This document shows, piece by piece, positions 31,401 through 60,282 of a stretch of 64,000 bases of DNA. Numbering within the stretch: position 1 is the stretch's first letter; the number at the start of each line of letters is the position of its first letter. Below the pieces are notes generated by a model. It made no database searches. It was not told the DNA's origin and saw only the letters and a list, made by a program, of their open reading frames with translations. Made by a program: the position numbers and the translations under genes. This stretch comes from Diphasiastrum complanatum (lineage: Eukaryota; Streptophyta; Lycopodiopsida; Lycopodiales; Lycopodiaceae): positions 42,432,927 through 42,496,926 of the forward strand of contig CM055101.1 of assembly GCA_029204225.1 (NCBI GenBank). Direction: 5' to 3'.

Positions 31401-31441
31401 ACGTCCACCATTGTCCGTCAACGACGGGCACTCTTTACTAG
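31401..31441 (+). mobile_element. Helitron 3' terminus, plus strand
   Basis: Plus strand reads a stem GTCCGTC, loop AAC, stem GACGGGC, then 'actctttaCTAG' ending at 31441 and followed by T. This is the Helitron 3' signature of a subterminal hairpin and CTRR with insertion before T. The same terminus appears at 33446 and 53254 (minus) and at 60282 (plus). I could not find its 5' end. Confidence 0.75.
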
Positions 31442-31575
31442 TATATATATATATATAGTAGTAAAAGTGCCCATGGATGACAATCAAGTTTTTTTTTCAT
31501 ACTTTTCACATTTCATTATAAAAAAGTCACTTACACAAGATGGGTTTCAAAGAATGCATGAAATTTTGTGAGAGT

Positions 31576-32265
31576 ACTGAAGAAAAGCCACCTGTTTGCC
31601 ACCACATCCTGGTGAGCTGCCAGTGGAGGCGGGTAGATTTGTTGGTGGTATGAAGACCGCATGGAAGGCACATGGGTTTCTGCCTGTGGTGGCCGCGGCC
31701 TCGAATTGGAGGTATGCAGCCCAGAGCTTGGAGGCAGAGGAGAGATCTGCGGATCCAGCAGAGTACTCTCAGGGCTCTCGACGAAATTGCATCCCAACAA
31801 CAGAAGCCTACGAGTGAACGGTCGCAAGCTGCGCAGACGAAGAGGGCGGAAGCAGCTTCCGAGCCTGCAGTATTCCTGGAACTGAAGCGCTTCTGGAAGC
31901 CACAACCCCTCTCTGCGCATCCACCATTGGCATTGCCACATACAGGACACCTCCATGGTTGATCTGCGAATGCGGTTGTAATAGGAAAGGGGAGGGGAAT
32001 TTGCTGCCAGAAAGGAGAAGGGATAGGGATTTGTTGATTGAAGGGGAGGAAGGAGAGGAAGGGGGGCGGAAGGGGCATGGAGGCAGGAGGAGGCGGAGTA
32101 GTGGTCGCCACCGGCGGTGGTTGAGGGTAGTTGGCCAGGGCCTGGCTCGTTTGTGGTGGCAGTTGTGGAGGCGCACTGCCATCGCGAAACGTAGATAGTG
32201 TCAAGATACTTCGCCATCTGCGCAACTTGTACTGGATCGAGCGATAAAGGTGCGAGAGCATGTTT
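31576..32265 (-). pseudogene. Proline-rich host-gene exon fragment, product unknown
   Basis: GC-rich compared with its surroundings and protein-like. After a splice-acceptor-like CAG near 32266, one frame reads '[17 protein letters not shown]'. Another continues with a Pro-rich stretch ('[12 protein letters not shown]', '[12 protein letters not shown]'), and the first frame again ends '[18 protein letters not shown]' before a donor-like CAG|GTGG near 31590. The frame changes suggest one or two indels, so I call it broken. I do not recognise the family. Its strand matches the surrounding Helitron candidate, which fits captured gene sequence. Confidence 0.45.
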
Positions 32266-33148
32266 TGTTGGCCTGGTGATTCTTGAGTATGTGCCTAAAT
32301 TTTGAGATGGCAGAATCCAAAACTTTTAGCAGATTGTTCAAAGCCCCCTCCCCAGCAGTTTCGAGAACAATGCAGCTACCCAGGGTGGCCCCTGACAGTA
32401 ATTCAGCAGTCAGTCATCTATGTAATAAATTATAAGACTTGGACCAACATAATCAATTGAAAGCCCACAAGCAATCAGATTAAATCAGTGGAATTATCTG
32501 GTTTGCAAGGAACAAATAGAATCTAGGATCTGAGTATAGGCATCACCAAAAGCTTCATTGGCCCATTTCTACAGTGGAAACCCTCTCCTGTGTCACATGC
32601 GAAAAAGTATGGCCTGAGCTCTGACAGGATAAACTCAAAGAATTCGAGAGCTGTCAGCTACTTCGTAAATCGCTGAAATCGCAGTTTAGAAAGTGCTCAA
32701 AGTCCCTGAGCAAGTGCACGTTGTGGTAAATTGCAGTTTTCCAAAGAGCTATTTTTGTAGTAGAATACTGCCGTCGAAGATAACATCATCATCTATTGTC
32801 AGAGAGCTACATCATAAGTAATACCAATTCATAAATAATCCAAGTTTCAGAAAGCAGTATTGCTGAGACTTTTGAGGATGCATTTGTGTGAATTGATGCT
32901 GATAAGTACTGTAAACAACTAATTGAGTTTGGGAGATTTACCGAGGGAATCGCCCACGTAGAAAGGTGCTATATTTATTGCTCACTCTGTGTATTCGACT
33001 CCATACTTACAACCAAATTCTCCTCCAACTTTGATCTCTGTCAAGGGTAAAAAGCTACCATGGTTAATAGAAGCAAGTGCCAGCAGCACAATGGTCAGGA
33101 GCAACAACAATTTTTGCTCGTACACACTACCGCCATCAGTATTTGTGA

Positions 33149-33193
33149 GAGAGAGAGAGAGAGAGCGAGAGCGAGAGAGAGAGAGAGAGAGAG
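33149..33193. repeat. Imperfect (GA)n tract near a Helitron 5' end
   Basis: About 45 bp of GA with two GC interruptions, placed about 250 bp inside the 5' end, as in the related element at 59398 (CT tract after a C run). Confidence 0.9.
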
Positions 33194-33656
33194 ACTCGAT
33201 CGAGAGAGAGATCGCGCGCGCCGGGGGGAAATTGGAAATTTGAAATGTGTGTGTGGGTGAAAAAGAAAATAAAAGACGCGCATGTGTTGTTTTCTTACCA
33301 TTTTTTTTCAAAGTGTGTTTTAGCTCTTTTCTTTGCAAATGAGTGACGTTTTTTGCGGGCATCGCGTGACATTTTAGGTGGCACAGCGTGACATTTTTTA
33401 CGGCAAAACACACACTCTCTCTCTAAAATAGTTTTATACTATATACTAGTAAATAATGCCCGTCGTTGACGGGCGATGGCGGCCGATCAAGGTGACGGCC
33501 GATGATTTGGAAATTCAGTATGTCGTTGATGGGCAATGACGACTGATCTAGGTGGCGGCCGATGATCCGTTTGTTGTAAATCGGTGGTTTTATCAGAGAT
33601 GATTGACTAATATCTAATTTAGAGGAGCTCTGATCAAAACAGAGGCTCGGATACCA

Positions 33657-34027
33657 TGTCAAAAATCAGTGGGTCTATGCGGAACTGGGAGCGAGCTAGA
33701 TGGATGGATCGGAAGTGCCACAGTTAGCAGCAATGGAACAACAACTGAGTGGAGACAAAATATACTCTTTGATTATAATCAACAGATGATTACAATCGCT
33801 TGAAGTGATAACTTCAGTTGGTTGAGCATGATAACGTTGGCTACCAAAAAAGAAACTCTGATCGTTGTGTGTGATAACATATGCAACGGATCTGTCCGAT
33901 TGAATTGATAAAAACAATTATCAGAAGTTTTAGATATCAGATGTCCTTGAAGAAGGTAAACTTTTCAGTAGTTGTTTTCTTATGAACATTCTAGGATAGA
34001 TATACTGAAAAATATCTATAACAACAT
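33657..34027 (-). repeat. Possible LTR with primer-binding site
   Basis: On the minus strand a sequence ending 'TTTTTGACA' is followed directly by TGGTATCCGAGCC, which looks like the tRNA-Met primer site of a copia element. The far end is uncertain; a TG start near 34027 is possible. There is no coding sequence of such an element next to it. Confidence 0.4.
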
Positions 34028-34119
34028 TTTCCTACAGTTATTACAATTGCCTCATATTGTTATTGTTTGTACTAAGTAGGCGAACTGTCAACGCAAAGTC
34101 GTTGGGTCAAATTTTAGAC

Positions 34120-35020
34120 TGACAATGTCGAAAAATTACATAGGGTCAGATTTTATACATTGGTTCGGATTTTATACAAAGTGAACATGTTTGAAAAAAT
34201 TCGAACTGATCTGAATTGAACACGTTGGGTCAGATTTTAGACCGATAGTGTCGGATTCTATACATTGGTTTGGATCATAGATGCACCGCAATTCGCGATT
34301 CAGAATCGTGATTCAGAAACGCGTTCCGGAATTTTTCCAGAATCGCGAAGAATCGTTTTTTTTTTTTTGAAATTCTTTTAGGCAATATGGGTATCAGATG
34401 AAAACTTTGATTGAGAGCATTATGATTGTGTAGTTTGTTGACCACCCCTCAGACCCCTTGTTTCTCGGGGGGCTACCACCCCCCGAACCCCCTAGAGCTT
34501 TCAACTATATAGACAATGTAGATAAAAATGCTACCGCCCCCCCCCCCGTAGATAAAAATGGGGTCCAAATGCGCGTCGAGAAGGGCCCAATATTTATGTC
34601 CCCAACGGTATGTACATTGCACTGACATCTCCAGTGAAACAATTGCAAAAGTGATCATCATCCATACAGTGGATAGCCCAAACTGTAGGATTAACATTTA
34701 CTGAAAACCAGAGCAAATGACAACCGGATTTCTACTGAAAATAAGATCAATTTGTGCCCCATCTACTGCACTTCTAAGAGGCAAAACGCTGGTTTGACCA
34801 TTGATCCCCTAAAATTTTTTTAGCCATAAGCTATTTTTCCAAAAAAAAAAAACAAAATTTGTTTTTTTTTTTTTTTGTTTTTTGCGATTTTGGGTTCAGA
34901 ATCGCGATTCGCGAATCGCGGACCCAACGAATCGCGATTCCGTGCATCTATGGTTTGGATTTTATACAAAGTGAACATGTTCGGGAAAATCCGAATCGAA
35001 CACGTTGGGCCGCTCAAACA
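34120..35020. repeat. Diverged tandem repeat interrupted by the MITE
   Basis: The phrase 'ttggttcggattttatacaaagtgaacatg' followed by 'gaacacgttggg' occurs at 34162-34230 and again at 34262-34275 continued at 34953-35008. A partial copy lies near 34120. Removing the MITE rejoins the last copy. Confidence 0.75.
34276..34952. mobile_element. hAT-type MITE, 677 bp, with exact 8-bp target duplication
   Basis: The ends are a perfect 11-bp inverted repeat CATAGATGCAC, and the element is flanked by identical 8-bp copies of GTTTGGAT (34268-34275 and 34953-34960). Eight-base target duplications are characteristic of the hAT superfamily. The subterminal parts are rich in overlapping 'gaatcgcgattcgcg' palindromes. 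It codes for nothing recognisable and contains runs of T, A and C. It landed in a tandemly repeated flank (see 34120-35020). Confidence 0.92.
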
Positions 35021-36478
35021 TGTCGTATCCTCGATAACTCTCTGGCTTACAGACGCAACCAGCAATGCTCTTCGCACCGCATTACGTCTCCTATTTAATC
35101 TCCTCTTCCTTGCAGACCTACTTTCATGCTTCAGAGTAATACACGAAGGGTTGCTTCGCGCACACTCAGGTGTGTCCATGTCGATAAGCCCACATGGATT
35201 TTTTAGTTCTTCTAATAGAAATGGCCTATCAAATGACAATAGAAATCATCAAGTTTATTGTACAATATTAACGAAATGGTCAAATTCTACCTAACAAACA
35301 AATAAAAATAAAAACACAAACATAAACTATCTATGTTTAATGTTTACAACGACATTATGTTGACCATTTCAAAATACATAATGAGAAACAAAACATTATC
35401 ATTAGGCTTTACGATGCTAAGAACATGCTGGAAACTCTTCTAATCATGGACTTCACAGACTTTCTGAATCATTTGAGGGAAAGACAACATTATGGGACAT
35501 CAGGACCATAACTATCACAGGCTGACTATATTTCGATCGACATTCAATATCGTGAAGATAAAACATATCTTTTAGAATAGGAGGAAAGTTTAAAGTGTTA
35601 TTCATGGACACGTTAAAGATAGGGATGAAAAGATTTTATCATTGATTTAGACAAACCTCGGGCCTCTACATACCCGTCGTTGGCTTTTTGCATCGATGGA
35701 GTTTACTTGTCATTGTGTCTGTAACTCAAGTATTAAGATTGGCCTACATAAACCCAGCTAAGAACGTTATTTTGACCCATGTATCTCATATGCTGATTAC
35801 CCCAAGCGAAATGGTATGCAGACCATTCATATATCAATCTAATAAATACATCAGATTGCTACATCTCGTGCATATTAAGCTAATAAATACATCAGACCAC
35901 AATTGCTTCATAAATGATATGAGTTGCAAAAATCGTTGTATTGCATTATTCTTCATGCATTCATTAGGTGTGTGGCAAAATACTACTATATTATTGTTTG
36001 TTGTAACTGGCATCAGTTATTTATGGAAAGGAGGGCCTTAATTTTCAGCTGAATGTGAGAATAAATCTGATAATAAGGTAAAGGTAGAGGCTAATAGCAG
36101 TTAACAATGACTTTTCTAACAACGATCCCATAATAATACAATTGCTTTTCTTTTATGCACTAGCTGTTGTTTGGTATTTCATTGAAAAGTTCTAAAGAGA
36201 ATATATATTTCTGGGCATGGCGACAGCTCTGACATCATTTTGGCTAATATCCTATCAAGATATATATTAGGCTTACGACATACTATGAAAGACAATGATG
36301 AAGACAGTCAGTTTGTTGTTATTTAGCAAGAGGTCCTGCATTGCAAGGAGAGCTTCTGAGTCCAATTTTAGTTTACAGGAAATCATATTAGGTCTTAATC
36401 AAACATGCAGACTATTAGGAAATCATGCGAACTTTTCAATAAATCATATTAAGAAATCATGCAGACTTTATCATAATG
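35021..36478. other. No recognisable gene
   Basis: The region 34820-35239 is open on the minus strand for 139 codons but starts in the MITE and has a basic, low-information composition; I do not trust it as a gene. The rest is AT-rich and non-coding by eye. Confidence 0.45.
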
Positions 36479-36498
36479 AGAGAGAGAGAGAGAGAAAG

Positions 36499-36546
<48 letters not shown>
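36479..36546. repeat. (AG)n microsatellite, interrupted
   Basis: About 68 bp of AG with two 'aaagctt' interruptions. Confidence 0.95.
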
Positions 36547-36551
<5 letters not shown>

Positions 36552-37539
36552 TTTATTAATGTCTTTTTCATGCCAAAAGGCATATCACATACTGATCACG
36601 TTCACGGGAATGGCAACTGCCATTCACCTGGTCTTTTTTCAAGTCAGCAATCTCTTTCAAACCAGCATCTTCCTAGAAATAACTTTGTCTAGAATGCAAT
36701 AAATAGCCAAACCCTCTACTAACCGCAACTCAGATTAATGCCAATGGTCACCCTGGAAATTTTGCATCTTATTTGAAGTTCCAATACAACATTCTCTTGA
36801 GAATGCAATTTTTTTTTCTGGAAGAATGCAATTCGGTGTTGTGGTTTGATACACATTGCACAACTATTTTCTAAAGTCAACATCAGCGACCCCACACGGC
36901 GCAACACCCTTCAGACTCTGATTGTTGCTAGTTGCTTGTTTTCCTTTTCAAGCACCGATCCATAGTCCAGTGTCCATTCACAGAGTTCAAACTCAAAGAA
37001 ATTCGTTAACATAATTAAACATTCCATGATCCATGTCGGGAAGAGACTTGACAAAAACAGATATAAAATGAGAAGAAACGTAATGTTCCAGCTTGCTACT
37101 CAAATACTGATGATTGAATGTGGTGAGTCAAGCAAGAAGTAAATTTTGCCATCAATTCTTATCATATTTCTTCCTCACAATGCAAAAGGTATTTGGTTAT
37201 TGGTGGCCTATATTTTTAAAGACTCGTGAATTTCAAAAAATTATAATCAGCTGGTATACAAATCATAAAATTTACATCTCAATTGAGACACCAACATTCA
37301 AAGGGTAAATAAGCGTTGCTGCTCTTTTAACAAAATCTCCTATACAAAATACCCTTGCTGCTCTCTTAACAAAATGTCACAAAAAAATATACAATTGAAT
37401 ATTATGTTTTATGTACAGCAGTAATCTGAATGCTACTAAATGAAGTACATTGTTCTTTTGATGTTCTGAGTAAAGCTATACAAGCTTAAAGTAGCTGAAA
37501 TCAGAAGTTTAAACTTTTTGTTCGATCTGTTGCAAAGCT

Positions 37540-38590
37540 TGGCAGCTAGCAGAATTGATTTGTTTCATGTTCGGGAGGTTTGGTGAACCAAGATGCTGAT
37601 GTGCCTCGCCTTCTCAGTAGTCTGGTGAAGGATGATTCTGGCATAAGTGCACTTAGCTCCAACTGCAATTCTTCTTCTGTCTTTGGCATACATCCTGGTT
37701 TTGGAAATTCATGTTTCTTTCACTCAAGCTCGTTCATTTCCGAGCTTTCCACGGATGGTGTAGGATTAACTGCTTTTGTGGCTTCAATCCATCCTGTTTG
37801 AGCAATATTTTGAGGGTTGGCAATTCCAGCACGCTCTTCATCTGCTCTTTGCAGCTTTGAAACCTTGGCTAACATTAATAAATTGTCGATTAGGCTGGAA
37901 ACTTCACCTGATTGTCTGACAATGCGCTCGATGTGTCCTAGGGTATGGCAATCCATGGGATGCTCATTGATAGATGTCATCTTGCATCAATCGTCCTGCA
38001 CAGCATTGTTTCTTCAACGTAACGAAGTTCAGAGCTATAGAACATGGACAAAAGAAACCCTCAGCGAAAGATATATTTGAAGAACAAACAAAAGCAAACA
38101 ACATGGCTTCATTTTCTCGATCTCGAATAAAGCTTCCTAGCAATTGTATGCCTCATCGCCTTCTAGTTGTGAGCAGCGATCTATGAATCAAATAGGTAAG
38201 AAGGAAAAATAGGGCATTAATTTTCTGCCTTCTCAAGCAAAATGTCAAAAGAGTAAACCATGTTGTTAGTTGCCTATCAAATAGAATAAGTCATGCTTGC
38301 ATCGCTTACCAGAAAGAGCCTACTCTGCCTTTTCAATAAGCAATCTCTCACGCATCCCGTGAACGATTCTGCTTTGATTAGATGGCTCCAGCCTCGGGAT
38401 TTGTTTGCTGACTGAGGAATCAGATTTTTCAAACTTTCGCTCGAATGAAAGAGACGGAGATGCAGCCAGAATTGCCATCCGGATGGCAAAAATGTGTGCT
38501 TTCCGACTGAATAGCTTAGCTTCAAGTCTGCTCACCGAGAGACAGTCATTGCGCCCAAGGAAGCAAGCAAATTGTGTGCGTATATAGTCT
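37540..38590 (-). pseudogene. Unidentified host-gene exons (two segments)
   Basis: Two protein-like minus-strand segments. Segment 1 (38590-38330) reads 'NDCLSVSRLEAKLFSRKAHI' followed by 'AIRMAILAASPSLSFERKFE' and ends at a TAG. Segment 2 (37980-37540) reads 'HPMDCHTLGHIERIVRQSGE', 'LIDNLLMLAKVSKLQ' and, after one TGA at a position where Trp would fit, 'KKHEFPKPGCMPKTEEELQL' and 'FTRLLRRRGTSASWF'. The composition and conserved look suggest a real plant gene, but I cannot name it. Stops in both segments argue for a non-functional copy. It lies within the Helitron candidate 33446-39657 and on its strand. Confidence 0.45.
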
Positions 38591-38784
38591 GTCCTGTTAA
38601 AGCCTTCATCTCAGAAAGCATCGCTCCAAAGACAAAGCTCTAGCTGAAAAAAAAATGGGAGCAACAACGAAAACACTGAACTAACAAAGAAACCTAGACC
38701 TATTGCAAAAAAGTGAAGCAATGCCCAGAAGCACACACTTAAGCATTAGCAAGATGACCAAGTCTCACATAGCTCTAAATTTAT

Positions 38785-38990: not shown

Positions 38991-39032
38991 GCAGTAAGTT
39001 ATTCGAATTTCATGGTCCAGCAGAAGATTTAC

Positions 39033-42420: not shown

Positions 42421-43862
42421 CTAAACATCATGCCAAGACATGGATTCCAAGGCATTTTGTGCACTTGAAGATACATCAATTAAAATAATAAGTGCATACA
42501 TCATGTTGCCAAAGACAACTTGCCTTGCTTGATCCATATGATTGAGCCTTGATGGCTCTATCTTGATACTCAAGGTTCTTCTTGGAGTCCTCGGGTCTTG
42601 AGCTTGATCCTCCACTTGACTTGACTCCAAAACATCAATGAATTGAATAAGGTGTTGATCCAAAGGTGCTTCTTCAAGTTTACAAATCTTCCACTCTTGA
42701 AAGATCACATTTTCACCATTGACAAATTCTTTGGTTGAAAACAAGTAGATTCTACAATCTCTACTTGAAGAGCAAAACACTACCATTATTCCTATCATTG
42801 AAATATGATAATCTTTGGTCCTTACATTGGAATGATCATGCACAAAGCATGTGGACACAAAGATTTCCAAAGCAAATGATGTTTCATCTTTCATGACTCT
42901 ATTCAAACTATTACAAAAATAGTTATCCAATGAAATTGCTTTATCAACAACAAATGTAGATTTCAAAGCATCCCATTTCATTGTCTTGTCATACAAAGTA
43001 ATAAACACCATGAATCTTAAAGATAAGAAACAAGTCACCTCATGTCTACTACTACTTTCCAAAAAGTATTCAAAGATAGTAGACTCTCCAATGCTCACCA
43101 CCCTTGCAAGATGCACACTTGAATGGAAAATTTGCATGCAATTTGATGACTCGGCCATTGTCATTGAGAACTCCCTTGGAACTCTCATGCTTTGAGGCTG
43201 ATCCTCAAGATCTTCCTCCTTTTGATGCTCCTCCTCAATGCAAGCAAGATCAAACTTTGCCAAGATCTCCTCTTGAGTGATCTCCTCCTTTGCCAAGCTC
43301 ATTCTTTCAAAAGCAACACTAGCTTCCAACTTAAACAATCTTCCATGTTTAAATACCTTTGCAATGCAAAAATCATTCTTCAAGATGAAGCAAACACCAT
43401 GCTTAAAGTGGACATCCAAACCACTTTCTAAGAGTAGACCAACACTAAGCATATTCTTGGTGATTGATGATACATAAAGGATATTTTCTAGATCCATGCA
43501 TTTTGAGGATTCTAGACACAAAGAGATGGTGCCAACACCATCTATCCTACACTCTTCATCATTTGCAGTAAAGACAAACTTTTTAGCAGCATTGAAAGAG
43601 TGTAAGGTTGAGAAAAAGTCCTTTTCACAAGACATGTGGGAGCTAGCCCCACTGTCGATCCACCAATTGTCTCTTGAATTGCTATTGCTTGTTGGTGAGG
43701 ATGTAGATGCCATCAAGAATACATCTACTTCATCCTCCTCCTTGTCCTTTGCAAGGTTTCCTTGTTTGTCCTCCTCCACTTGTGCTCTTAGCCTCTTGTA
43801 GCATTCAGATGCATAATGCCCCTTCTTTCCACAAAAGAAGCATTTTTGCTGTGACTTGTCCT
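42421..43862 (-). CDS. Copia zinc knuckle, protease and integrase-remnant frame
   Basis: One frame stays open for over 450 codons. It starts in gag with the CX2CX4HX4C knuckle 'CFFCGKKGHYASEC' (about 43845), passes the protease active site 'WWIDSGASSHMSCEKDFF' (DSG intact) and 'NILYVSSITKNMLSVGLLLE', and then changes character. About 200 codons follow that I cannot assign, then a stretch reading 'STCFVHDHSNV' and 'LFSTKEFVNGENVIFQEWK', which fits the end of a copia integrase. The integrase catalytic core, reverse transcriptase and RNase H are missing. The absence of stops in the residual frame is notable for an element of this age. Confidence 0.75.
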
Positions 43863-44582
43863 TTGAGCTTGATGCATCATCCTCTTCTTTGGCCTCCTTT
43901 GGATGCTTCTTCTTTCCATTGGTCTTCTTTTTGCTTTCTCATCACCATCCTGCAAAGACAAGGAACTCATCCTAGATTTTGCATGGAGCATCCTACACTC
44001 TTCAGCCACTAATACACTGTGAAGTTTTTCTATAGTTGGCAAAGTGTCTTGGATGGCAAAACTTTGGACCAAATTTGCAAAGTCATCTCCTAGACCATTA
44101 AGGACAATTTGTACAAGCTCTCCATCATGAATCTTCTCTCCAATGGAAGCCAACTCCCTATTTAGAGACTTGATTCTGAGTACATAATCCTGTGCACTCT
44201 CCTCACTTCTCCTCATGCTTTGCAAAATCTGACTTCTAAGCATGAGTACTCTTGAAGTGTTACTAGATTCATAGATTTATTTTAAAGACTCCCGAGCCTC
44301 TTTAGCACTAGTACATGCTGATACTTCTCTCAACAAATCATTGCTCACATTCATCTTCACACAATGAAGTGCAAGCCTAGATCTCTTCTTGTATCTAGCT
44401 AACTCTTGTGCACCTAGAGGTTCATCTTCATCTTCAATCAAGAACTCATAAAGGTCTTGGAGCACCAAGAGTGACTCCATCCTAACCTTCCAAATAGCAT
44501 AATTTGTAGAATTCAACCTCTCACTAGCTTCTAGAAGGTATGCTCCAGCAGATCCCATCTTACTAGTGACTTCTACAAACAA
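43788..44582 (-). pseudogene. Copia gag (UBN2-type), one stop and one frameshift
   Basis: Starts near 44582 and reads 'ERLNSTNYAIWKVRMESLL', typical for the start of plant copia gag. One TAA lies at about 44274-44276 in otherwise continuous frame ('ESLK*IYESSNTSRVLML'). It continues with 'SAQDYVLRIKSLNRELASIG' and 'VQIVLNGLGDDFANLV'. Near 43930 a one-base shift separates it from the knuckle and protease frame. Confidence 0.88.
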
Positions 44583-45564
44583 GAAATAGATTTGATTGAC
44601 TTGAAACTCACAAAGGTCTCACACTTGCAGTGTTTCACTCAAATTTGATTTCTAATCCAACAAATGGACTTATAATCATAGTTCTATCACTCCCTCACAG
44701 AGCTGGAATGAAGATAAGATGAAGTGAAAACTACTTTCAAACAAATATTGCCAAGAAATGGATTTGATTGTCTCTAGAAACTCACTAAGGTCTCTCTCTT
44801 GTAGTTTTTCACTCAAATTAGATTTCTAATCCAACAAATGGACTTATAATCTCAGTTCTAGCACTCCCTCACAAAGTTGGAATGAAGATAAGATGATGTG
44901 AAATCTACTTACAATCAAATCTTGCCAAATTTGGCTATTTTTGGACAAAAAAATGACTTAATCTCTTTCTTCCTTCTTGGTGTACTTTCAAGACCTGTTT
45001 TTAACCTTAATAGGACTTGAACTCAGCCTAGATTTATTAGATTCCATGAAACAAATTCAAATCTAATCAATGGCAAATGATCTTGGTAGAATATCCTAGG
45101 ATCTCCACCAAAAATTACACCAATAGCTCACAAATTGAATTTTTTTGGATCAAATGAATACCATGCATTAAATGCAGGTTCAGAGGTGCCCACACATGTG
45201 GACAGTACAGATTTGGACCCCTACCAAGTTTGGGATCAAATCTCCTCACCAAAATCAAGATTCTAGCTTGCCCTCTCAATACTAGCTTTTAGCACCAAAA
45301 CTTGCTAAAAATGGAATTTGCATTAGATCAATGGCTTATGCTCTTGTACTTGGCTCTGATATCATGTGAAAGTACTGTACTTTAGGACCATAAATGGATC
45401 TACAAAAGATCCACAAGAGTGATTGGATGCTTGCTTAACAATCTATCAAAAAACTAGACACAAAAAAGTTGATCTAGATTGGCAGTTTGACAAACAACAA
45501 GCATTAACAATCAAAAGCATTGATCAACATTGAAATCCGAGCCCACACGTGTGTAATACAGGCT

Positions 45565-45932
45565 TTCTATAGTCCATGCCCTTAAGACTTGGAGGCATTA
45601 TTTATATGGTGCCAACTTTGAGGTTCTGACAGACCATGAAAGTCTTAGATACCTGCCTAAAACCCAAAAGGGTAATGACGCTATATGGGTCATAGTTGAT
45701 CGTCTGACCAAAATGGCTCATTTTATTCCGACCAAAACAATCGTTAGAGCTCCAGAGTTAGCGAGGTTGTTTGTAGACAGGTTATTTAAATTGTACGGTA
45801 TACCTTCCGGCATAGTCAACGACCGGGACAGTAAGTTTAGTGGGAATTTTTGGAGGGCAGTATTCCATCATCTCCATACTAAACTTATTATGAGTACCAC
45901 TTTCAATCTATCAAACAATATGATAGCCTAGA
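45565..45932 (+). pseudogene. Ty3/gypsy fragment: RNase H end joined to integrase core
   Basis: Residues like 'LKTWRHYLYGANFEVLTDHE' (RNase H, over more than one frame) run directly into 'AIWVIVDRLTKMAHFIPTK' and 'YGIPSGIVNDRDSKFSGNFW' (integrase, catalytic D residues visible). The zinc-binding part is deleted in between. The lineage differs from the gypsy copies at 21-30 kb. Confidence 0.85.
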
Positions 45933-47757: not shown

Positions 47758-49543
47758 GGTTTCTAGTTCGGACACACGTTTCGCTGTGAGTATTGAACTG
47801 TTTGGAGTCCAGTTAAGTCACGTGGATTCATCTCGACGTGCAGTACAAGACATAACAAATGGTCTGAAAAACAGACTCCGTTCGACGACACTGGACCAAT
47901 TCTTGAAAAATGTTGGAATCTAGTCCATTTAGTAGTATACCCCTCGACAGAAAGGGCATTTTCGAACAAACAGCGTCGGAATTGAGTTATAAAAAGTCCT
48001 ATGGGTTCCTATCAAGCCCACAAACTTGTGGACACCTCCCATCCGAGGTTCTGACTGCTTTTACTGAGTCCGACCAATTTCTGGCTCGATGGGCCTAGAA
48101 TCCCAGAACTATGTTTAGGGTTTCTGGTTCGGAGACACATGTTGCACTGTTAGTTCTGAACCGTTTGGAGTCCAGTTTAGTGCAATAGGTTCATAGCGAC
48201 GTGCAGCATAGGACAGAATAGATGGTCTGAAAAACGGACTTCGTTCGGCGACATTGAACCGGTTCTTAGGGATGTTGAAAAGTAGTCCATTTAGTGGCAT
48301 TTCCCTGGCAAAAAGGGTGCTTCTAGACAAACGACGTCGAAATTGAGCTACAAATGGTCCCATGGGTTTGTGTTGAGCCCACAAAGCTGTGGACACCTCC
48401 CGTCCAAGGTTCTAACTGTTTTCTACTGAATCCGACCAATTCTTGGCTCAACGAGCCTAGAATCCTAGAACTACGTTTAGGGTTTCTGGTTCGGACGCAC
48501 GTTTCGCTGTGAGTACTGAACTGTTTGGAGCCCGGTTTAGTCCCGTGGATTCATCTCAGCGTGTAGCATAGGAGGGAATAGACGATCTAAAAAATGGTCT
48601 CCATTCGACGATATTGGACCAGTTCTTGGGGATGTTGGAAAGTAGTCCATTTAGTGGCATTTCCCTCGACAGATCAAACGGCGTTTCTGGACAAACATCG
48701 CTAGAATTGAGTTGCAAATGGTCATGTGGGTTTGTGTCAAGCCCACGAACTTGTGGACACCTCCCATCCAAACTTCTGATCATTTTTTACTGAATTCGAC
48801 CAATTTCTGGCTCGATGGGCTTAGATTCCAAGATCTAAGTTTAGGGTTTCTGATTTGGACACACATTTTGTTATAAGTAGTGAACCGTTTGGAGCTTGGT
48901 TTAGTCCTGTGTGTTTTTCTCAGCATGCAGCACAGGACGAAACAGACCATCTGAAAAATAGACTCCTTTTGGCGACATTGGATCGGTTCTCGGGGATGCT
49001 AAAAAGTGGTCCATTTAGTGGCATTCCCCCTGACAGAAAGGGTGTTTCTGGACAAACAACATCAGAATTGAGATAAAAATGGTCCTATAATTTCATGTCA
49101 AGCCCACGAACCTATGGACACCTCCCATTCAAGGTTTTGATTGTTTTTTACTGAATCCAACCAATTCATGGCTCGACGGGCCTAGAATCCCAAAACTATG
49201 TTTAGGGTTTCTTGTTCAGGGATGCACATTTCATTGTATGTACTAAACCGTTTGGAGTCCAGTTTAGTGTTATAGGTTCATATCGGCGTGCAGCATAGGA
49301 TGGAACAAATGGTCTGAAAAACGAACTTTGTCGACAACATTGAACCGGTTCTCGGAGATGGTGAAAAGTAGTCCATTTAGTGGCATCCCCCCGGTAGAAA
49401 GGGCATTTTCGGAATTGAGCTACAAATGGTCCCGTGGGTTCATGTCAAGCCCACGAATCTGTGGAAATCTCCCATTCGAGGTTCTGACTACTTTTTACTA
49501 AATCCGACCAATTCTTGGCTCGACCGGCCTAGAATCCTAGAAC
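47758..49543 (+). repeat. Satellite-like tandem array, about five units of ~362 bp
   Basis: Units begin at about 47758, 48119, 48482, 48846 and 49206 with 'tagggtttctggttcgg' variants. They share 'gaaccgtttggagtccagtt', 'gtccatttagtggcat', 'aagcccacgaacttgtgg' and 'atgggcctagaatccc'. Periods are about 361, 363, 364 and 360 bp. Units differ by roughly 10-15 percent by eye. No unit codes for a protein; frames of 60-90 codons are incidental. Confidence 0.93.
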
Positions 49544-49754
49544 AAAACATCAAAATTATTTGTTTGTTAGCAAACCCCACCCTGCCTCACCATCTCCATC
49601 TCCAACTCATCCTTCACTCTCAACTAATTGCAAGATTTTATCGAGAGCTTGGAATTGTTTTATGATGTCTTATTAGCTATTGATATATGCAATCACTATC
49701 TCACCTCCCACATACAATATTCACATTCATTGGCATGGAAATTTTCTGTTGGAA

Positions 49755-50265: not shown

Positions 50266-51010
50266 CTATCCAAAGCTCTCTTCTTTGCATAAAATTAACG
50301 TTTTTTTCCTTCTTCTTTCGGTTGTTCTAGATTCTACTGTGGGGGCCCTATACGACTGGTTGTTACGCACCTCCTCTGGCTTAACCAACACTACTGAATG
50401 TAACTCAAGCCCCTCACAAATCACGGTATCTCTCATAGACGAACAAACACCCTCTCTTATATCAACATTAGACATCGGATCCAATGTAACATGCACAAAA
50501 GCGGCACCTAAAGTCGTCAATGAACTGCTATCATGTGCATCGTAGGCCTATCGCATATGAATAAACTTGTGTGATTGACCCTACTCCAAGAGTACTCGCC
50601 GCTTATCCTAACCCTATCCTACTCACAAACAAATCAACATCTCCTCCACAACAACTATCCTCCAAAACACTTGGAACTGTATCAAAACCAATTCCATCCC
50701 TACAAACATCCTCTTGTACCTTCTCCAACTCGAGACATGTTAGCCTCCTCTTCGCTCTTTTCCTTTGTTCTAATTTCTTAAACCTATCCCGTCTAGACTC
50801 AAAATCTGAGGTCCTATAAGAGGGACTGTCTCCACCACCAAGACCAACAATCGTCGACACATGCCTATGCAAACTTGTGGTTGACCATGTCACCTCATCA
50901 ACAACAACACCTCCATCACTAATACCTACAACTGAAACATGCTCGACATTATGCAAACTTACGGTTGAGCATGTCGCCTCAGAAGGGTTCATGTCGTGAA
51001 GTCCGTACAA
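50266..51010 (-). other. Unrecognised minus-strand frames
   Basis: Two open stretches (51010-50603 and 50520-50266) with moderately protein-like content, including a basic segment 'ESRRDRFKKLEQRKRAKRRL'. An internal repeat of 'gttga.catgtc.cctc' occurs at about 50880 and 50960. I see no start, domain or splice pattern that would make a gene call safe. Confidence 0.3.
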
Positions 51011-51119
51011 ATATTCAATCTTTTAAATAAAAAAAACACTTGCAAATTTGGAATATAAAATTGTCAGATTTACTAACGAAGTTTTTGAAATAATATAACA
51101 ATTTTTTTTACCAAAACAT

Positions 51120-52849: not shown

Positions 52850-53213
52850 CATGTATAAGGCCTTCAGAAGGAGGGTCTCTCAATAACATGTATAAGGCCT
52901 TCAGAAGGAGGATCTTGAGAGACGAAGGAAATGAGAGATGGATCGTGGAGAGGGAGAGACAAAGAGGGGGAGGGAGAGGGGGAGAGAGACGTTTGAATTT
53001 AGAATTAAATTACTAGGTGGGGCCAAGGGGAGGTGCAATATGCATGCATGGGGAGGGCCCATACATGGGGAGGATGCCGCATACATGCATCCTCTTCCCC
53101 CTCTTCCCCAAGTTTTTTACTTAGAAAAGTGTATGCATGGGTGAGGGAAGAGGATGCATGGGTCCCTCACCCATGCATACAAAAGTGTACATAAGTTTAA
53201 ATATATATATAGA
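52850..53213 (-). mobile_element. Helitron 5' part, minus strand
   Basis: On the minus strand a 5' end TCTATATATATATTTAAAC starts at 53213 after an A, and the following ~200 bp ('CTTATGTACACTTTTG', repeated 'CCCATGCAT' phrases, a 'TCTCTCTCCC' tract) match the 5' part of the element starting at 56531. Its 3' end was not found. It directly follows the 3' end of the next element (53254). Confidence 0.6.
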
Positions 53214-53219
53214 TATGTA

Positions 53220-53253
<34 letters not shown>

Positions 53254-53369
53254 CTAGTAAAGAGTGTCCGTCGTTGACAGGCAATGGAGGCCAATTTAGG
53301 TGGCGACCGATGATTTGGATGATGGCCGATCTCGCACATCTTGCATCTCGAATATCTAACTTCCAAGTC

Positions 53370-54180
53370 TTTGGAAAAATTTGAGCCCTTGAAAAAAAAT
53401 TCGAGCCTTTGGAAAAATTCTAGTCTTTGGAAAAATTCGAATCTTTGAAAAAAAATCGAATCTTTTGAAAAAATCGAGTCTTCGGAAAGATTCGAATCTT
53501 CGAAAAAATTTGAGTCTTTTGAAAAATTTGACTTGACAGTACAAACGGTCCTTCGATCCTTCGAAAAAATTCGAATTGACATTTTGATCCTTTGGAAAAA
53601 TTCCAGTCATTGGAAAAATTCGAGTCTTCGGAAAAATTCGAGTCTTTCCAAAAATTCGAGTCTTTGGAAAGATTCGAGTCTTTCAAAAACTTCGATCCTT
53701 TAAAAAAAGTCGAGTCTTAAGAAAAAGTCGAGTCATTTGAAAAATTCGATCCTTTGAAAAAATTCGAGTCATTGGAAAAATTCGATCCATTAGAAAAATT
53801 CGATCCATTGTAAAAATGCGAGTCATTTGAAAAATTCGATCCTTTGGAAAAATTCGAGTTTTTTCAAAAATTCGAGTCTTTCAAAAAATTAGAGTCTCAA
53901 AAAATTCAAGTCTTCTAAAAAAATTCGAGTCTTTCAAAAAATTTGAGCCCTTCAAAAAATTCGAGCCTTTGAAAAGATTCGAGCCTTTCGAAAAATTTGA
54001 GTCATCGGAAAAATCCGAGTCTTCCGAAAAATTTGAGTCATCTTCTGAAAAGTTTGAATCTTTGGAGAAATTCAAGTCATTTGAAAGATTCGAGTCGTTC
54101 CAAAAATTTGAGTCATTCGAAAAATTCGAGTCGTTTAAAAAATTCGAGTCTTCTAACAAAAATCAAGTCGTTCCAAAATT
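53370..54180. repeat. Minisatellite of ~18-bp units (gaaaaattcgagtctttg)
   Basis: About 40 degenerate copies of an 18-bp unit. Because 18 is a multiple of three, several frames stay open on both strands: the minus strand reads Ser-Asn-Phe-Ser-Lys-Asp repeats and the plus strand Phe-Glu-Lys-Phe-Glu-Ser repeats. I take these as by-products of the repeat, not genes. Confidence 0.9.
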
Positions 54181-54189
54181 GATGCGACC

Positions 54190-55400
54190 AATGAGCTGGT
54201 CTCTTCACTGACAACAACAGCCAGGATGAGCGTTGAAGTGTGCTCAATGCACCCGCACCTCTGCTATGAGAAATGAGTCAGAATTAGTTACCAGATGAGC
54301 TGTGAAGAATGTGTTGCAGCTACACTTATTGAAAAGTGCTTTCTATTGTGAAACTCATAGTCATTAAAGAGAGTGCTTATTATGAGAGTAGTGTTAAAAA
54401 TTATAAAACATATCTATCATCTGTTGTTAATGTTTGGGGGATCCTACCCATGTAAATATTTTGTACATATCCAAGGTATGTGAATTGAGCACATATCCTT
54501 GTAGAATAGGGCGAGTTTGGGTTAGGTAGATCAAATTCCAGTGACATGCATAAAGTCTAGTTGGTCTAGTATGATATGCAATAATGTTGACAATGTTTAG
54601 TTTGACATGCATATAGAGATTCACATGGAATTGGTCAATTATGACCTTGTAGAAACTCGAGCCACAATAAATGCATAATGTCCTGAGTTTCCATAGTGAC
54701 ATGCAAAGCATGCAATCACTCTAATGGATACATGCATGTAGATTTGTACATGGCTAGTTGAGAAATTGCCATTTGAAGAAAGTAGGTAGAAGTTAGGTGC
54801 AACCTATGCATGCTAGCAGTTAGGTGTCAAGTTAATAGTTGTTTGCACTTGAATAGGTGTAGGATGTGCATTGAATGCATAGTACCACAAATTTTGGCTC
54901 TCCTATATATGTACATATTATTCTCATTCACAAAGTAATGAAGAACCAAAGTTTTGTAGCTATCTCATGTCATTTTGGATCTAAACAAATATTGCTTGTT
55001 ATCTCTCTAGCTCTCTCTCTCTCTAACTCGTGTTGAGGCTAATGCTCATACATTGAAATCTTGTATTTTTTCATTCTTTGATCATTGCTATTATATTCTG
55101 TTGATTAGCATGCTAGATTGTGGATTAGCCATTTCTTCTGAACTAGATTTTGTTGATCAATCTAGAATCAGGTTATAGTGCCAATCACAAAGCTTAATCA
55201 AGATCAGTCACTCTTGTGAACATTTCCCACATGTGTGAATTCTGGAAATTTTCAACGTAGTGGCTCATACTGGTCCACACCTACGTTGGAGGCACATCAG
55301 CGAGGATCCACATTAGATCACCGAGGCACATCAGTGATCCCTATCATGTAGTCTATTCTCAATGGATTGAGTGCTAGCAAGGTAGGACAGGTTCAGACCA
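54190..55400. other. No gene seen inside the Helitron
   Basis: AT-rich sequence without coding features. The phrase 'aggcacatca.cgagga' recurs at about 55290, 55325 and 55425. Confidence 0.5.
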
Positions 55401-55414
55401 TCGCACTCCACTGA

Positions 55415-55750
55415 TTAGTGAGGCACATCAACGAGGAGCTCTCTCACTGCTATTTCTATCTCAGCACTCTCTGCAACATCGTCTTTTCTCGTCTGCAGCT
55501 TCACACCGACCTTGAGATGCTCTGTCACTACCCTGCTGATCAGATGTTGCTCTGCAAACTGAGGTAGTGTCATAATTGGCACCCCGTTGTAGATGCTCTT
55601 GAGAGTGAAATTCCAACCGCAGTGGCTTCCGTGGAAGGATGAGAGAGAGGATGCGCAACTGTAGCACCCAGGTGGAAATGATCAGGCCACGAGTATGAGT
55701 TCAAGAAAGGAAACCTTCTAGAAAGTTCGTGGCTTCTGTTGCAGATGGTG
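55415..55750 (-). pseudogene. UDP-glycosyltransferase fragment with PSPG box
   Basis: The minus strand reads 'NFLEGFLS*THTRGLIISTW' and then 'VLQLRILS'. Two frame changes over 'HPSTE' lead to 'SHCGWNFTLKSIYNGVP' and 'LPQFAEQHL', continuing in frame to a TAA at 55415. This is the plant secondary product glycosyltransferase (PSPG) box that binds the UDP-sugar: the HCGWN core and closing Glu-Gln are present, but the opening W-A-P-Q is altered to W-V-L-Q. At least one stop and two shifts occur, and the N-terminal acceptor-binding domain is absent. It is fused to an unrelated coiled-coil segment. Confidence 0.82.
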
Positions 55751-56125
55751 GTGGCTTCTGCTTCTTCCAACAATTTCTTATATTCCTCTATTTAATTTCT
55801 TTGGGCACAGAATCGCTCTGCCCTCAACTGCAATTGTTCTTTTTGCTCCAGCTCCTTTTGCTTGCGTTTCTCCTTTTCCTCTCTCTCCTTCATCTTTCGC
55901 TATTGCCTTTCTTTATGCCTAGCTTCTCGCTCCTTCAACTCCTGCTCCTCCTTCAGATCCAACTGCTTTTGTATCCATTCCTTTTCTTTCTCTTCCCTTG
56001 CTATGAGTCTTTCCTGTTCTTGTAGTTTTCTATCGAATGCCTCACCTTCCTTCACGTCTTCTCAATGTAGAGCTCTTGTAGTTCTCTATCGAATGCCTCG
56101 CCTTCCTTCACATCTTCTCAATGTA
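55751..56125 (-). pseudogene. Glu/Lys/Arg-rich coiled-coil coding fragment
   Basis: The minus strand reads a strongly charged frame ('REEKEKEWIQKQLDLKEEQE', 'ERQ*RKMKEREEKEKRKQ', 'LEEAEATT') with two stops. It would form a coiled coil; the parent gene cannot be named. It directly precedes the UGT fragment on the same strand with no spacer visible. Confidence 0.6.
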
Positions 56126-56128
56126 GAG
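56017..56128. repeat. Two-copy tandem duplication of ~56 bp
   Basis: Two copies of a unit containing 'ctatcgaatgcctc.ccttcc' and 'tcttctcaatgtagagct', at about 56017-56072 and 56073-56128, with three or four differences. It lies inside the coiled-coil fragment. Confidence 0.9.
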
Positions 56129-56624
56129 CTGCCTTCAAAATATCGAGCAGTGAATCCACACAATGTGCTTGAACAGATAGTGTGTGTGGCTTGTGCCCAT
56201 GACCGTGAGAGAGACCATGATCATGAGAGAAATAGAGGGAACATGAAATTTGAATTTGTGGAGGTGGGCCCCACCTATGAAATATGTATTGGAAAGAGGG
56301 CATACATCTTCCTCTCACACATACATACACATGCATGTGTCCAAAAAACCTCCTCCCTTGCATGCATGGGGAGGAAGCATGGGGAGGAGGGCCATACATG
56401 CATCCCCCTCCTCATCATTTTTAGTGAAGAAAATGTGTATGCATGGGTGAGGGGAGGAGGATGCATGGATGCACCCATACACATGCGCAAAAGTGTACAT
56501 AAGTTTAAATATATATATATATATATATAGATATATAAGGAAGCGAATGGCGGTCGCGGACGCGTCAGGGGTGCGTCCGCGTCATTACACGCATCGCCGC
56601 TCTCTCTCTCTCTCTCCCTCGATG

Positions 56625-57195
56625 GCTGGCGCATTCGCGCTGATGCTGATCGCGATGGATGGTGTTGATCGCTTTCTACTGGGCAAGCTTGGGTGGAAAG
56701 GCAAGGTGGATGATGAGGAGGCAGATAGAGATCCTGGAAGCGGGGTACGCCCTACTTCAAATACGCATGTAATGGGGCTTCAGAGCTTTTGCCAGCAAGG
56801 CTTCTATATATTGGAGAGATTGTATATGAAGCAGCAGTGGCTTATGTTTCTGGCGTGCTTCTTAAGAACCTTTGTGTCAGTTATTGGAGCGTGGGAGATG
56901 TATAAACACAATTCAAGGAAGTGCCGAAATCCCCATTGCAATGGATTGCGTAAAGCGTGGAATTTGATATTCAATTGGAGACTGAAGAATACATAAAACT
57001 ACATAATCCGAGTTGCTTCCATGGAATAGGGGAGTGGAGCTCACTCAGGATCAGAAGGAGCTTGAGGCAAAACTCAAAAGGATGGCTCCACAAAACGGCA
57101 GATTAGCGATGTTGATTTATCGAGCTCCTAGCGGATGTCCTGCTGTCCGATTCGAGGTCTGGGCACCTAAGAAAACTCGCAGGGCCAAGAAATGA
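56625..57195 (+). pseudogene. Plant 'L34e superfamily'-type membrane protein, intronless broken copy
   Basis: It reads 'ERLYMKQQWLMFLACFLRTF' (a membrane-helix-like segment) and 'CRNPHCNGLRKA'. After a one-base loss near 56960 the next frame gives 'VEFDIQLETEE', and after a second shift the end reads 'LPWNRGVELTQDQKELEAKL', 'APQNGRLAMLIYRAPSGCP' and 'FEVWAPKKTRRAKK', then TGA. From memory this order (CxNPxCxGLRKA, EFD.QL.TEE, PW, APPNGRA.., GPKR.RR.KK) matches a small plant family labelled 'ribosomal protein L34e superfamily', whose function is unknown. No intron separates the blocks, which hints at a processed copy. ATG codons near 56547 and 56621 could be starts. Confidence 0.6.
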
Positions 57196-57980
57196 CCGGT
57201 GCTGCGATCGATGGGGCAAGGGGCAAGGGACAAGGGAATTTCATCGGTTCCTTCGAATTGGTCTGAGCCTTTTATGAAGCACATCTTTGGTTATTGGAGA
57301 GAAGGGATATGGCGGATTGTAGTGAATCAAACACAGAAATTGGACATTCACATGGAACTTTTGCTGTATGATAGAAAAATGTGAGCAAGTAGCAATGTAA
57401 AGATCAACGTTTATCTGGTCGAGAAGAGCTCTAGCAGACATCTCTGCATTGGAAAGATTAAGAGCTCCCTTTAAGTAACTATATAATTTTTAAGAAAATT
57501 CCAAGGATTGTGCTCCTTCGCAACAATAAATGATTACAATAAGCAACAATTGTGCTCCTTCGCAACAATAAATGTTGAGCAAATAAGCATCGGTGGGAAG
57601 GTGAGATGATTACATCCTATTTTGTAGATATTTGGATGTGGGAAGGTTTCTTTGCCTCAAGAAATCCCCACACGCAACTGTTTGCATAGATCTCATTAGC
57701 GAAGCCACCAAAGGGTCCAGCTCCAAGGAACTGATAGGAAGCGGGGGTTTTTGGGGAGGGTTACAAGGCGCACCTCTCCCAGGATGGTTCACAACCGTGG
57801 TAGTGAAGAAAATATTCTAGAACGCTGCTCATGTGTCTTGAAAGTCTTAGAACTTTTTATTCAAAATCCAGAAAGCAAGCTTTCTTTCAGCTCACATCGC
57901 ACTGGACATCACATTACCATCTCCCTAATTCGCAAAGTTTGTAATGCATTCCGTTCCTTTTGGTTCTCTGCGTGTAACTT
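57196..57980. other. No gene seen
   Basis: Contains a 26-bp duplicated phrase ('attgtgctccttcgcaacaa' and following bases at about 57509 and 57549). Frames up to 77 codons lack protein character. Confidence 0.5.
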
Positions 57981-58397
57981 ATGATGCAGTCTCTTCTTTC
58001 TGCATCATGACTTCATTCTTTGTTCCAAATATACGTTGTTGTTGTTTGGCTGAGTATATTGTACACCAAGTCCAGCCTAGCACAGAATGGCGTAACAATC
58101 ACAGATGAGCGTGAGAAGCAAGCATTTTACGATGTAATGGGAGTATTAAACCATGATTGGGACTTCTGGAAAACCTTGCTAGATCCTTGTGGGGTTAATG
58201 CCATCAAAGGTATCAATTGTAATCTTGAAGGCAACACATTCTATTTTACAGATCTCAACTTCAGACCTACTTATGATAACATGCCAGCATGCAGCTTCAA
58301 TGCAACCATCCATCCATCAACTTTGCTTAGGCTGCTTTGCAAGTTTCTAAATACAAACACCTCCTTCGCTGGTTCTAGGGTTTGCAACCATAGATGA
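57981..58397 (+). pseudogene. LRR receptor-like protein, N-terminal fragment
   Basis: From ATGATG at 57981 the frame hits one TGA (58008) within what looks like a signal peptide ('IYVVVVWLSILYTKSSLAQ'). It continues with 'DEREKQAFYDVMGVLNHDW', 'LLDPCGVNAIKGINC' and 'PACSFNATIHPSTLLRL'. This is the pattern of the N-terminal cap (LRRNT) of plant receptor-like proteins of the PII-2/RLP29 type. The leucine-rich repeats should follow, but the sequence turns into 'CKFLNTNTSFAG...' and stops at 58397. One stop and no LRRs make it a fragment. Related proteins sit at the plasma membrane and take part in sensing. Confidence 0.62.
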
Positions 58398-59340
58398 CGT
58401 GGATAGGTGGTTGTCTGAAATCGCACAGGTTCCATACATTTGCAAGAAAGAGGCCCATTTGTAATAGCTTAAGGCTTGCAAACTAATTCTAATTCAAAAT
58501 CTAAGCATGCTGTATATGAAGACCCGAACTTTGCATTCCAGATTCCTTTGCAGGCAGCAGTCGAGAGAGAGATATCACCAGTTTTTTTGTAGGACGTTAA
58601 GCTTTCTAATATTTTTAGCATCTATAGTATTTCCTTTAGTCAGAAGTTCTCCTAGCAGGCTGGGTAAAAAAATTTCCTCCCTCAACAAGTGCCACTGCAT
58701 CTTGCACCAAGTTTCTAGGGGAACTCATGATCATGCTAATTAAGCTTGAGAAGCTTGCTTTGGAGTTCATGCTTGAACTGTATTTATTATCTGGTGTAGG
58801 CCTCAACAGTTTTTTAAATCAGTGCAATCCTTAAATATACACAAGTAGATTTTAAATTTGGCATGTTGTGACAAGTTAAGTTCTTGGTCTAAATGATCTC
58901 AAGGAGTTTTTCTTGAATTATCCATCTGTAGCATTACTCAATTTAGAGCAATTAAGATTCTTGTGACATCCTAGCCAATTCTTTTGCTTATGAAAGTAAG
59001 GAGATCCTTTGTTAGAGCTTATCATGTCTTATCAATACCATTATTATTGAACGATGAAGGAGATGTAGGTCTCCACATTATGAAGCCCCAAAAGAAAGCA
59101 ACATTTGGTGTAGCAGAATAAAGTGAAAAAGTAAGATCAAGCTTCGATTCTAGGATTAAACCTAGGTGGTCTATCAGAAAAGGTCAACAAGTTTGGGAGA
59201 CACGAGGATGAAGCACATGGAAAGTTGGAAAAGGACAGAGCATGGTTTGGCTAAGGTCTTCAAAAATGGGAGAAGGCCTTAGATTTGGTGAACCTTTAAC
59301 TCTAATTTTGGGGGCTATATGACTACTTTAGTAGGCCTGA

Positions 59341-59342
<2 letters not shown>
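58398..59342. other. No gene seen
   Basis: Unassigned DNA between the LRR fragment and a (TA)n run at 59343-59394. Confidence 0.5.

Positions 59343-59394
<52 letters not shown>
59343..59394. repeat. (TA)26 microsatellite
   Basis: Run of TA ending three bases before the Helitron at 59398. Confidence 0.97.
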
Positions 59395-59397
<3 letters not shown>

Positions 59398-59591
59398 TCT
59401 ATATAGTATAAAACTATTTTAGAGAGAGAATGTGTGTTTTGCCGTCAAAAATGTCACGCTCTGCCCCCAAAAAATGTCACTCATTTGCAAAGAAAAGAGC
59501 TAAAAAATGTTTGAAAAAAAATGATAAAAAAAACAACACATACAATACTTTTTTTTAATTTTTGGCACACATTTCAAATTTTCAATCCCCC

Positions 59592-59656
<65 letters not shown>

Positions 59657-60281
59657 GATCACGAGCAGGCGGGAGGCGGGATGGGTGGCTTGATACCCAG
59701 CTTCGAGCTCATACTCATCAAAAGATGTGGCTGGTTGCCCCCAAAAGATGCGGCTAGATAAACAAGAAGATATATTTGTGGAAACTTTGTTGAAGTATGG
59801 CTATACAAAAAAATATTTGTCCAGAAAGGGTGCCAACAACCTGTCTTTATCCAGTTGTTTGCACCTTCATCGTTAATTTATGTGACAAAGCTTACAGATT
59901 CTCCCAAAATCTTCCTCGTAGATGATATCACTGTTCGAACACAAAGATACAAACCAAGTTAAATACATATGTTCAGATAGTCAAATATTCAAGAACCATT
60001 TGTACATTACACATTCAATATATTGTCTACACACACTAGGAAATTTTGTTGCATATACAAGGCTTTCAATCTGCAGTTTTAGATTTTTAGTACCAAAAGG
60101 ACTTGCATATTTGCCAAGTTTGAGTTCTTGATCGGCCACCAACGACGGGCATACCCACTAGATCATCGGTCGCCACCTAGATCGGTCGTCATCGCCCGTC
60201 AACAACATACTGAATTTCCAAGTCATCGGCCGTCACCTAGATCGGCCGCCATTGCCCGTCAACGACGGGCACTCACAACTA

Positions 60282-60282
<1 letters not shown>
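59398..60282 (+). mobile_element. Complete non-autonomous Helitron, 885 bp
   Basis: Starts TCTATATAGTATAAAAC at 59398 directly after A. Ends with the hairpin GCCCGTC-AAC-GACGGGC (60254-60270), eight bases, and CTAG at 60282, directly before T. Inside are a C16 run, a ~52-bp CT tract and a 3' doublet of ~60-bp units containing 'gccacctagatcgg' and 'cgcccgtcaac'. It has no coding capacity for Rep/helicase. It shares its 5' ~260 bp with 33445-33100 and its 3' end with 31441, 33446 and 53254. Confidence 0.85.
59587..59654. repeat. C16 run followed by (CT)26
   Basis: Homopolymer C run directly followed by a CT tract inside the Helitron. The relative at 33100-33240 has a shorter C run and a GA/CT tract at the same place. 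Confidence 0.95.

Follow-up and report, generated by a model that had tools for sequence, protein, structure and literature searches.

Several 5′ ends on one 3′ end are the standard basis for naming Helitron subfamilies, according to PMC4289320, and further reports describe three close systems. In rice, DHH_Mothra elements (PMC4683698) are high-copy and non-autonomous, run from TC to a hairpin and CTAG, carry tandem-repeat blocks and gene fragments, and have ends in common with a larger coding relative; their proposed mother element has RPA and no RepHel. In maize, composites form from nested Helitrons, which prefer to land near or inside other Helitrons (PMC3288121), and adjacent head-to-tail Helitrons have been reported (PMC2267711). 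In bats, Helraiser/Helibat elements (PMC4778049, PMC5876387) have a hairpin as 3′ terminator, bypass of which creates new 3′ ends, and show head-to-tail junctions; experiments on hairpin function and bypass were done on Helraiser. Here, a 64-kb stretch of the Diphasiastrum complanatum genome (C10:42432927-42496926, within 1.74 Gb in 5,176 pieces; hereafter the window) was analysed for a group of elements which very probably represent copies of one Helitron (rolling-circle) transposon family, with one kind of hairpin-CTAG 3′ end and 5′ ends of at least two types (A and B).

The window family resembles each of these systems. It has the listed features of DHH_Mothra, a likeness by description, and differs from it in that Rep-coding relatives with the same 3′ end are present. 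As in maize, copies lie in or next to each other, with pseudo 3′ ends, CTAG-TC junctions and composites that extend from the 5′ end of one element to the 3′ end of another (a likeness in arrangement). The hairpin terminator, bypass and head-to-tail junctions of Helraiser/Helibat likewise have counterparts here, although that is an animal element in which they rest on experiment, whereas for the window family we infer them from sequence.

The initial annotation had proposed four 3′ termini, each with a 7-bp stem, an AAC loop and CTAG followed by T. All four were recovered, at 31441 (+), 33446 (−), 53254 (−) and 60282 (+), and AAC loop, 8-base spacer, CTAG and T are present in 4/4; the stem is perfect at 60282 and 33446 and, by reading, imperfect at 31441 (one wobble) and 53254 (one mismatch and one wobble). 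Helitrons typically carry a small hairpin some 10 bases ahead of the 3′ end, and the window ends have one, imperfect in two cases. Scanning for perfect stems (≥7 bp, then CTAG) returned five matches in the window versus 0 to 1 per sequence in 20 simulated sequences built from the window's dinucleotides. Two of the five are the perfect ends and a third is the 60282 palindrome read on the opposite strand; the remaining two, at 34465 (+) and 43512 (−), are unrelated. The ends at 31441 and 53254 were not picked up because their stems are imperfect. The exact 17-bp hairpin plus CTAG occurs twice in the 64 kb, and the strand at 60241-60282 folds with −9.1 kcal/mol (z = −3.3). Identity over the last 30 bp was 80-90% across all six pairs of window ends (200 random 30-bp pairs: mean 45%), which places them in one family by the rule quoted in PMC4289320 (at least 80% identity over the last 30 bp). 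The 31441 end is 80-97% identical to other ends over 30 bp and 59-67% over 100 bp, and a 5′ end was looked for and not found for this terminus.

To establish the borders across the genome, a 153-bp 3′-end query was used (1,432 first-look candidates, 40 scored). Of 34 3′ ends fetched, 25 were distinct after removal of duplicated loci (a script flagged 11 of the 34 as duplicates, leaving 23; L064 and L075 were kept as distinct, sharing only type-B sequence with L056). CTAG was terminal in 22 of the 25 and followed by T in 22/22, in keeping with the CTRR end and host T of Helitrons. Median pairwise identity was 93% at −60 to −30 and 87% at −30 to −1, dropping beyond CTAG to 50% (+1 to +20; TA-rich in most, the first 20 bases being 84% A+T), 30% (+21 to +60) and 25% (+61 to +100). 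Similarity therefore stops at CTAG/T (the slash marks the border), and the continuation past it that the initial annotation had named as a sign against Helitron ends is absent from these medians (87-93% inside, 25-30% outside).

The three 5′ termini predicted to start with TC after A were also found in place, at 59398 (+), 56531 (−) and 53213 (−), and all read A/TCTATATA; a TC start with a host A in front is that of Helitrons. Borders of genomic type-A and type-B 5′ ends were called by reading, not by script. Among 23 distinct type-A ends (26 fetched, three duplicates dropped), 13 had A/TC and one CTAG/TC, the other nine lying in TA runs or being without TC; type-A ends elsewhere in the genome have unrelated flanks. 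Among 26 distinct type-B ends (31 fetched, five duplicates dropped), eight had A/TC and two CTAG/TC, and the border was unplaceable in 16. Identity between types A and B over the first 30 bp was 55-69%; with less than 80% taken to separate subfamilies, following the 80% rule as quoted in PMC4289320, there are at least two 5′-defined subfamilies within one family, consistent with the two 5′ types on one type of 3′ end described originally. Eight other type-B loci have the first 120-140 bp of the 56531 element in common, and this module is joined to at least three kinds of interior among them; L105, L108 and L111 share more of the 53254-56531 interior, and L112 has its 3′ part and ends about 17 bp short of its expected 3′ end. 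No complete short element was found in the eight loci, each read for 750 bp, and no 3′ end for the 5′ end at 53213 was found in the window with the patterns used.

A genome search with Pfam Helitron_like_N gave 150 matches, all over the cut-off (150 scored of 1,332 candidates), and nine Rep loci were read downstream. Long open frames were the reason for taking C10, C17 and C19, and a helicase motif that for C4824, C1, C13, C4 and C2, while C21 was included because its 3′ end had already been seen. The search for a Rep/helicase partner with the same 3′ end, recommended with the original description, was successful: the family 3′ end follows on the same strand at five of the nine loci (C10, C21, C1, C13 and C4), a proportion that is not a rate because the loci were picked by features. 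The C10 Rep element extends for about 11.8 kb from A/TCTATATATATAAAG to CTCACAACTAG/T and has a 1,173-residue open frame with a Rep domain (E = 8e-51), the HUH motif and tyrosines, while the helicase motif GPGGTGKT is present in the C1, C13 and C4 Rep elements. Members with the same ends are thus predicted to code for the Rep (HUH)/helicase of Helitrons, with both ends matched on C10. Compared with 59398-60282, the C10 Rep element is 81% identical over the first 30 bp and 97% over the last 30, and the type-A element at 59398 belongs on these values to the same family and subfamily as the C10 element under the 80% rule (as quoted in PMC4289320); compared with the window 5′ end at 33445, which has lost TC, it is 74% identical over the first 30 bp. 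Identity to the five Rep ends, measured over the last 30 bp, was 90-97% for 60282, 80-97% for 31441, 77-93% for 53254 and 73-90% for 33446.

A genome search with 59398-60282 (best 40 of 2,485 candidates scored) identified three other loci with both of its ends, two near-identical ones on C14 and one on C16. Upstream sequence crosses 59398 in 3/3 and is shared for 0.8-2.8 kb: 56642-60301 is repeated at 92.6-94.5% at the two C14 loci, and a shortened version lies on C16. The flanks past the CTAG at 60282 differ from the window's in the C14 and C16 copies. The piece that spread therefore ended at the 60282 CTAG and began upstream of 59398, making 59398-60282 the 3′ part of a composite that spread. 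Similarity past the A-TC border, the other warning sign named in the initial annotation, is thus seen at 59398, and this segment is rejected as a proven independent mover. Of the "at least two" elements credited with correct ends on both sides, 53254-56531 stands (type-B 5′ end, CTAG 3′ end) and 59398-60282 is reduced to part of a larger repeat. In the C14 and C16 copies, an A2-like 5′ region (TC not kept) precedes the interior, at the place where the window has a border termed type C; type C is present as well in L047/L048, where it follows a family 3′ end, and weakly in L036. The suggested exchange of 5′ ends is upheld insofar as one interior occurs with two kinds of 5′ border, and is weakened by one of these borders (type C) being unassigned.

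Chains of ends are frequent. Exact CTAG/TC junctions were found at seven distinct places (L003, L016, L056, L064, L081, L094, L096). In L042 and L055 (= L058) the downstream 5′ end is without TCTA and is cut at an A/T step beside the 3′ end, whereas the adjoining 5′ ends at window 33446 and in L061 lack TC alone, which is not an A/T step. A first orientation count gave 15 head-to-tail versus 3 opposite neighbours (binomial P = 0.0075), split into 8 versus 1 among 30 distinct 5′ ends and 7 versus 2 among 25 distinct 3′ ends. One of the three opposite cases, L124, resembles a low-complexity match; the pattern did not pick up L081, L088 and L101, which look head-to-tail by eye. A second set of 20 type-A ends (19 distinct) contained about two head-to-tail neighbours (L141, and L134 by eye) versus three head-to-head (L125, L132, L142), and a further inverted type-A pair lies on C1322 and is repeated on C494. 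Outside the count, head-to-tail pairs occur in L003, L012, L016, L030, L040 and L042 and twice in the window (locus repeats left out), and tail-to-tail pairs in L004 and L008; should type C be a 5′ end, 56531/56532 would be a head-to-head pair. The second set did not bear out a head-to-tail preference, and related copies are not independent; no orientation rule is therefore claimed. A more far-reaching suggestion, that TA-rich 5′ ends act as same-direction landing sites, so that head-to-tail chains move as composites and self-targeting, not rare accident, exchanges 5′ ends, is speculative and in our view unlikely.

The original claim of a Helitron family with a common 3′ hairpin-CTAG end is supported by the clean borders of dispersed copies and by relatives that code for Rep and have that end. 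In such a family, the Rep/helicase of larger members elsewhere in the genome would take the TC 5′ end as its start signal and the terminal 30-40 bp, with hairpin and CTAG, as its 3′ stop. Insertion would occur between A and T, mostly in TA-rich DNA that includes the TA-rich 5′ ends of older copies, and neighbours would pile up as a result. Where a 3′ end is missing or ignored, the next downstream 3′ end would be used and adjacent copies would move as one composite; repeated rounds would then combine a single kind of 3′ end with a variety of interiors and with several 5′ ends. Enzyme action, read-through and the order of events are reconstructed here from what was observed directly (composite copies, gene fragments, the ends with their borders, and relatives that have the same ends and code for Rep), and single-strand rolling-circle transfer through a circle would follow from family membership.

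Several observations weigh against this account. No empty site was found, although none could be searched for, and no copy read has both flanks in ordinary DNA, so that target duplications were hardly covered. The nine Rep loci were chosen by criteria and are not a random sample, and in four of them (C17, C19, C4824, C2) the 5.6-7.3 kb read contained no family 3′ end. The C10 copy yielded no helicase motif, the 6 kb upstream of the C4, C13 and C1 Rep elements did not reveal their 5′ ends, and 33446 reaches only 73-77% over 30 bp with four of the five Rep ends. Finally, the C16 composite is flanked on either side by a sequence of about 65 bp that includes a GC-rich palindrome (L004:2300-2363, L113:825-895), once upstream and once about 95 bp beyond the 3′ end, which plain A/T insertion does not explain. 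Apart from this repeat, nothing read departs from the normal Helitron picture.

It is most improbable that the elements are another kind of non-autonomous element, or a hairpin-bearing satellite in TA microsatellites: the mostly TA-rich flanks would suit such an origin, and a palindrome near the end is not specific to Helitrons, but the same 3′ end sits on Rep-coding elements, and the ends are TC and CTAG with A before and T after. The exact CTAG/TC junctions at seven places, together with two tandem type-B units in L004, might instead indicate that the head-to-tail chains arose from single elements, as rolling-circle concatemers or as circles that integrated, rather than by successive insertions; Helitron tandem arrays are known (PMC5876387). 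However, neighbours differ within chains (on C10 a short type-A unit precedes the Rep element; in L016 a Rep-coding element is joined to a type-B 5′ end), and the 5′ ends in L042 and L055 are cut at the A/T step as if a later copy had landed inside; the loss of TC alone at 33446 and in L061 does not show such a step. We regard concatemers as a quite improbable source of the chains.

Somewhat unlikely, though less so, is that the different 5′ ends arose after insertion through ordinary recombination or slippage in simple repeats. At 59398 the type-A region passes into a CT repeat, the join in L005 and in the C16 copy is at CTCTCT, and the type-C border in the window meets the interior at a CT repeat; the C14 junction, in contrast, does not lie in a CT repeat, and the L001 and C14 copies share sequence from 56642 to the exact CTAG and then have unrelated flanks, which fits composite movement. 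Movement of composites within one Helitron family is the reading retained here; Table 1 lists the features.

Only two of eight open frames scanned passed the Pfam cut-off, and both are gene fragments in the direction of their element, so that two window elements carry captured gene fragments; searches of NCBIfam (five proteins) and PDB (one protein) gave no matches. Relatives of the 31487-33445 element body (86% over query 1-1959) on C3448 and C3 lose similarity near 31487 and continue for roughly another 1.5 and 2.8 kb to a same-strand family 3′ end; the window copy was therefore cut off near 31487, and 31458 was rejected as a sure 3′ end of the 33445 (−) element. An array related to the 18-bp array of the 53254-56531 element is found at the corresponding place in the C10 Rep element.

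Table 1. Features of the Helitron family in the window (window coordinates; slash, element border)
Feature	Position	Strand	Remark
3′ terminus, one stem wobble + CTAG, then T	31413..31441	+	
Type-A element body	31487..33445	−	Cut off near 31487 in window
Captured isocitrate lyase fragment (PF00463, profile 65-101)	32134..32244	−	E 8.1e-15, sense to its element
Type-A 5′ end region without TC, directly behind 33446 3′ end	33147..33445	−	
3′ terminus, hairpin + CTAG, then T and type-A 5′ end	33446..33474	−	
Second type-B 5′ end, 41 bp past 53254 3′ end, same strand	53060..53213	−	
3′ terminus, imperfect stem + CTAG, then T	53254..53282	−	
Type-B element, both ends	53254..56531	−	Partial copies with same 5′ or 3′ parts at other loci; none of those read is full length
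18-bp tandem array near 3′ end of 53254-56531 element	53360..54190	−	
Captured UDP-glycosyltransferase fragment (PF00201)	55433..55627	−	E 9.5e-6, sense to its element
Type-B 5′ end region, A/TCTATATA...TTTAAACTTATGTACAC, conserved module ~120-140 bp	56380..56531	−	
5′ border "type C" of composite, not assigned to a 5′ end class	56532..56641	+	A2-like region at this place in C14/C16
Composite repeat: interior 56642-59397 + type-A part 59398-60282	56642..60282	+	
Type-A 5′ end region, A/TCTATATAGTATAAAAC, runs into CT repeat	59398..59600	+	
3′ terminus, hairpin + CTAG, then T	60254..60282	+	97% over last 30 bp to C10 Rep element 3′ end

Other features were noted in and around these elements. 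Inner hairpin-CTAG-like copies, possibly older bypassed stops, lie about 120 bp before the true 3′ end at 60137-60160 and L006:1629-1651, the hairpin being intact in L006 and its left arm gone in the window. Directly past the 60282 3′ end, at 60287-60470, a TA run and its flanking unit, together 87 bp, stand in two identical copies. Inside the composite, a 128-residue open frame at 58011-58394 (+) resembles a leucine-rich-repeat receptor fragment by eye and has no match in Pfam, NCBIfam or PDB. At 50266-51022 (−), a weak match to the N-terminal part of the genome's Helitron Rep/helicase proteins (tblastn E 4e-6 and 1.5e-4) suggests that a decayed coding Helitron piece may be present in the window. 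Units of about 361 bp are arrayed in tandem at 47758-49559, and a related unit (77-81%) occurs near the C21 Rep locus (L034:1-370). By eye, a Copia gag-like remnant frame was seen at 43788-44618 (−) and a Gypsy polymerase-like one at 45557-45931 (+).

The family is an ordinary plant-type, gene-capturing Helitron, and composites and several 5′ ends are already known from Helitrons, so no new kind of system is opened by it. It provides a worked case, within one genome, of several 5′ ends on one 3′ end together with enzyme-coding relatives, captured genes and composites, and it is an aid to annotation, since the two closest ends understate the length of the unit that spread.

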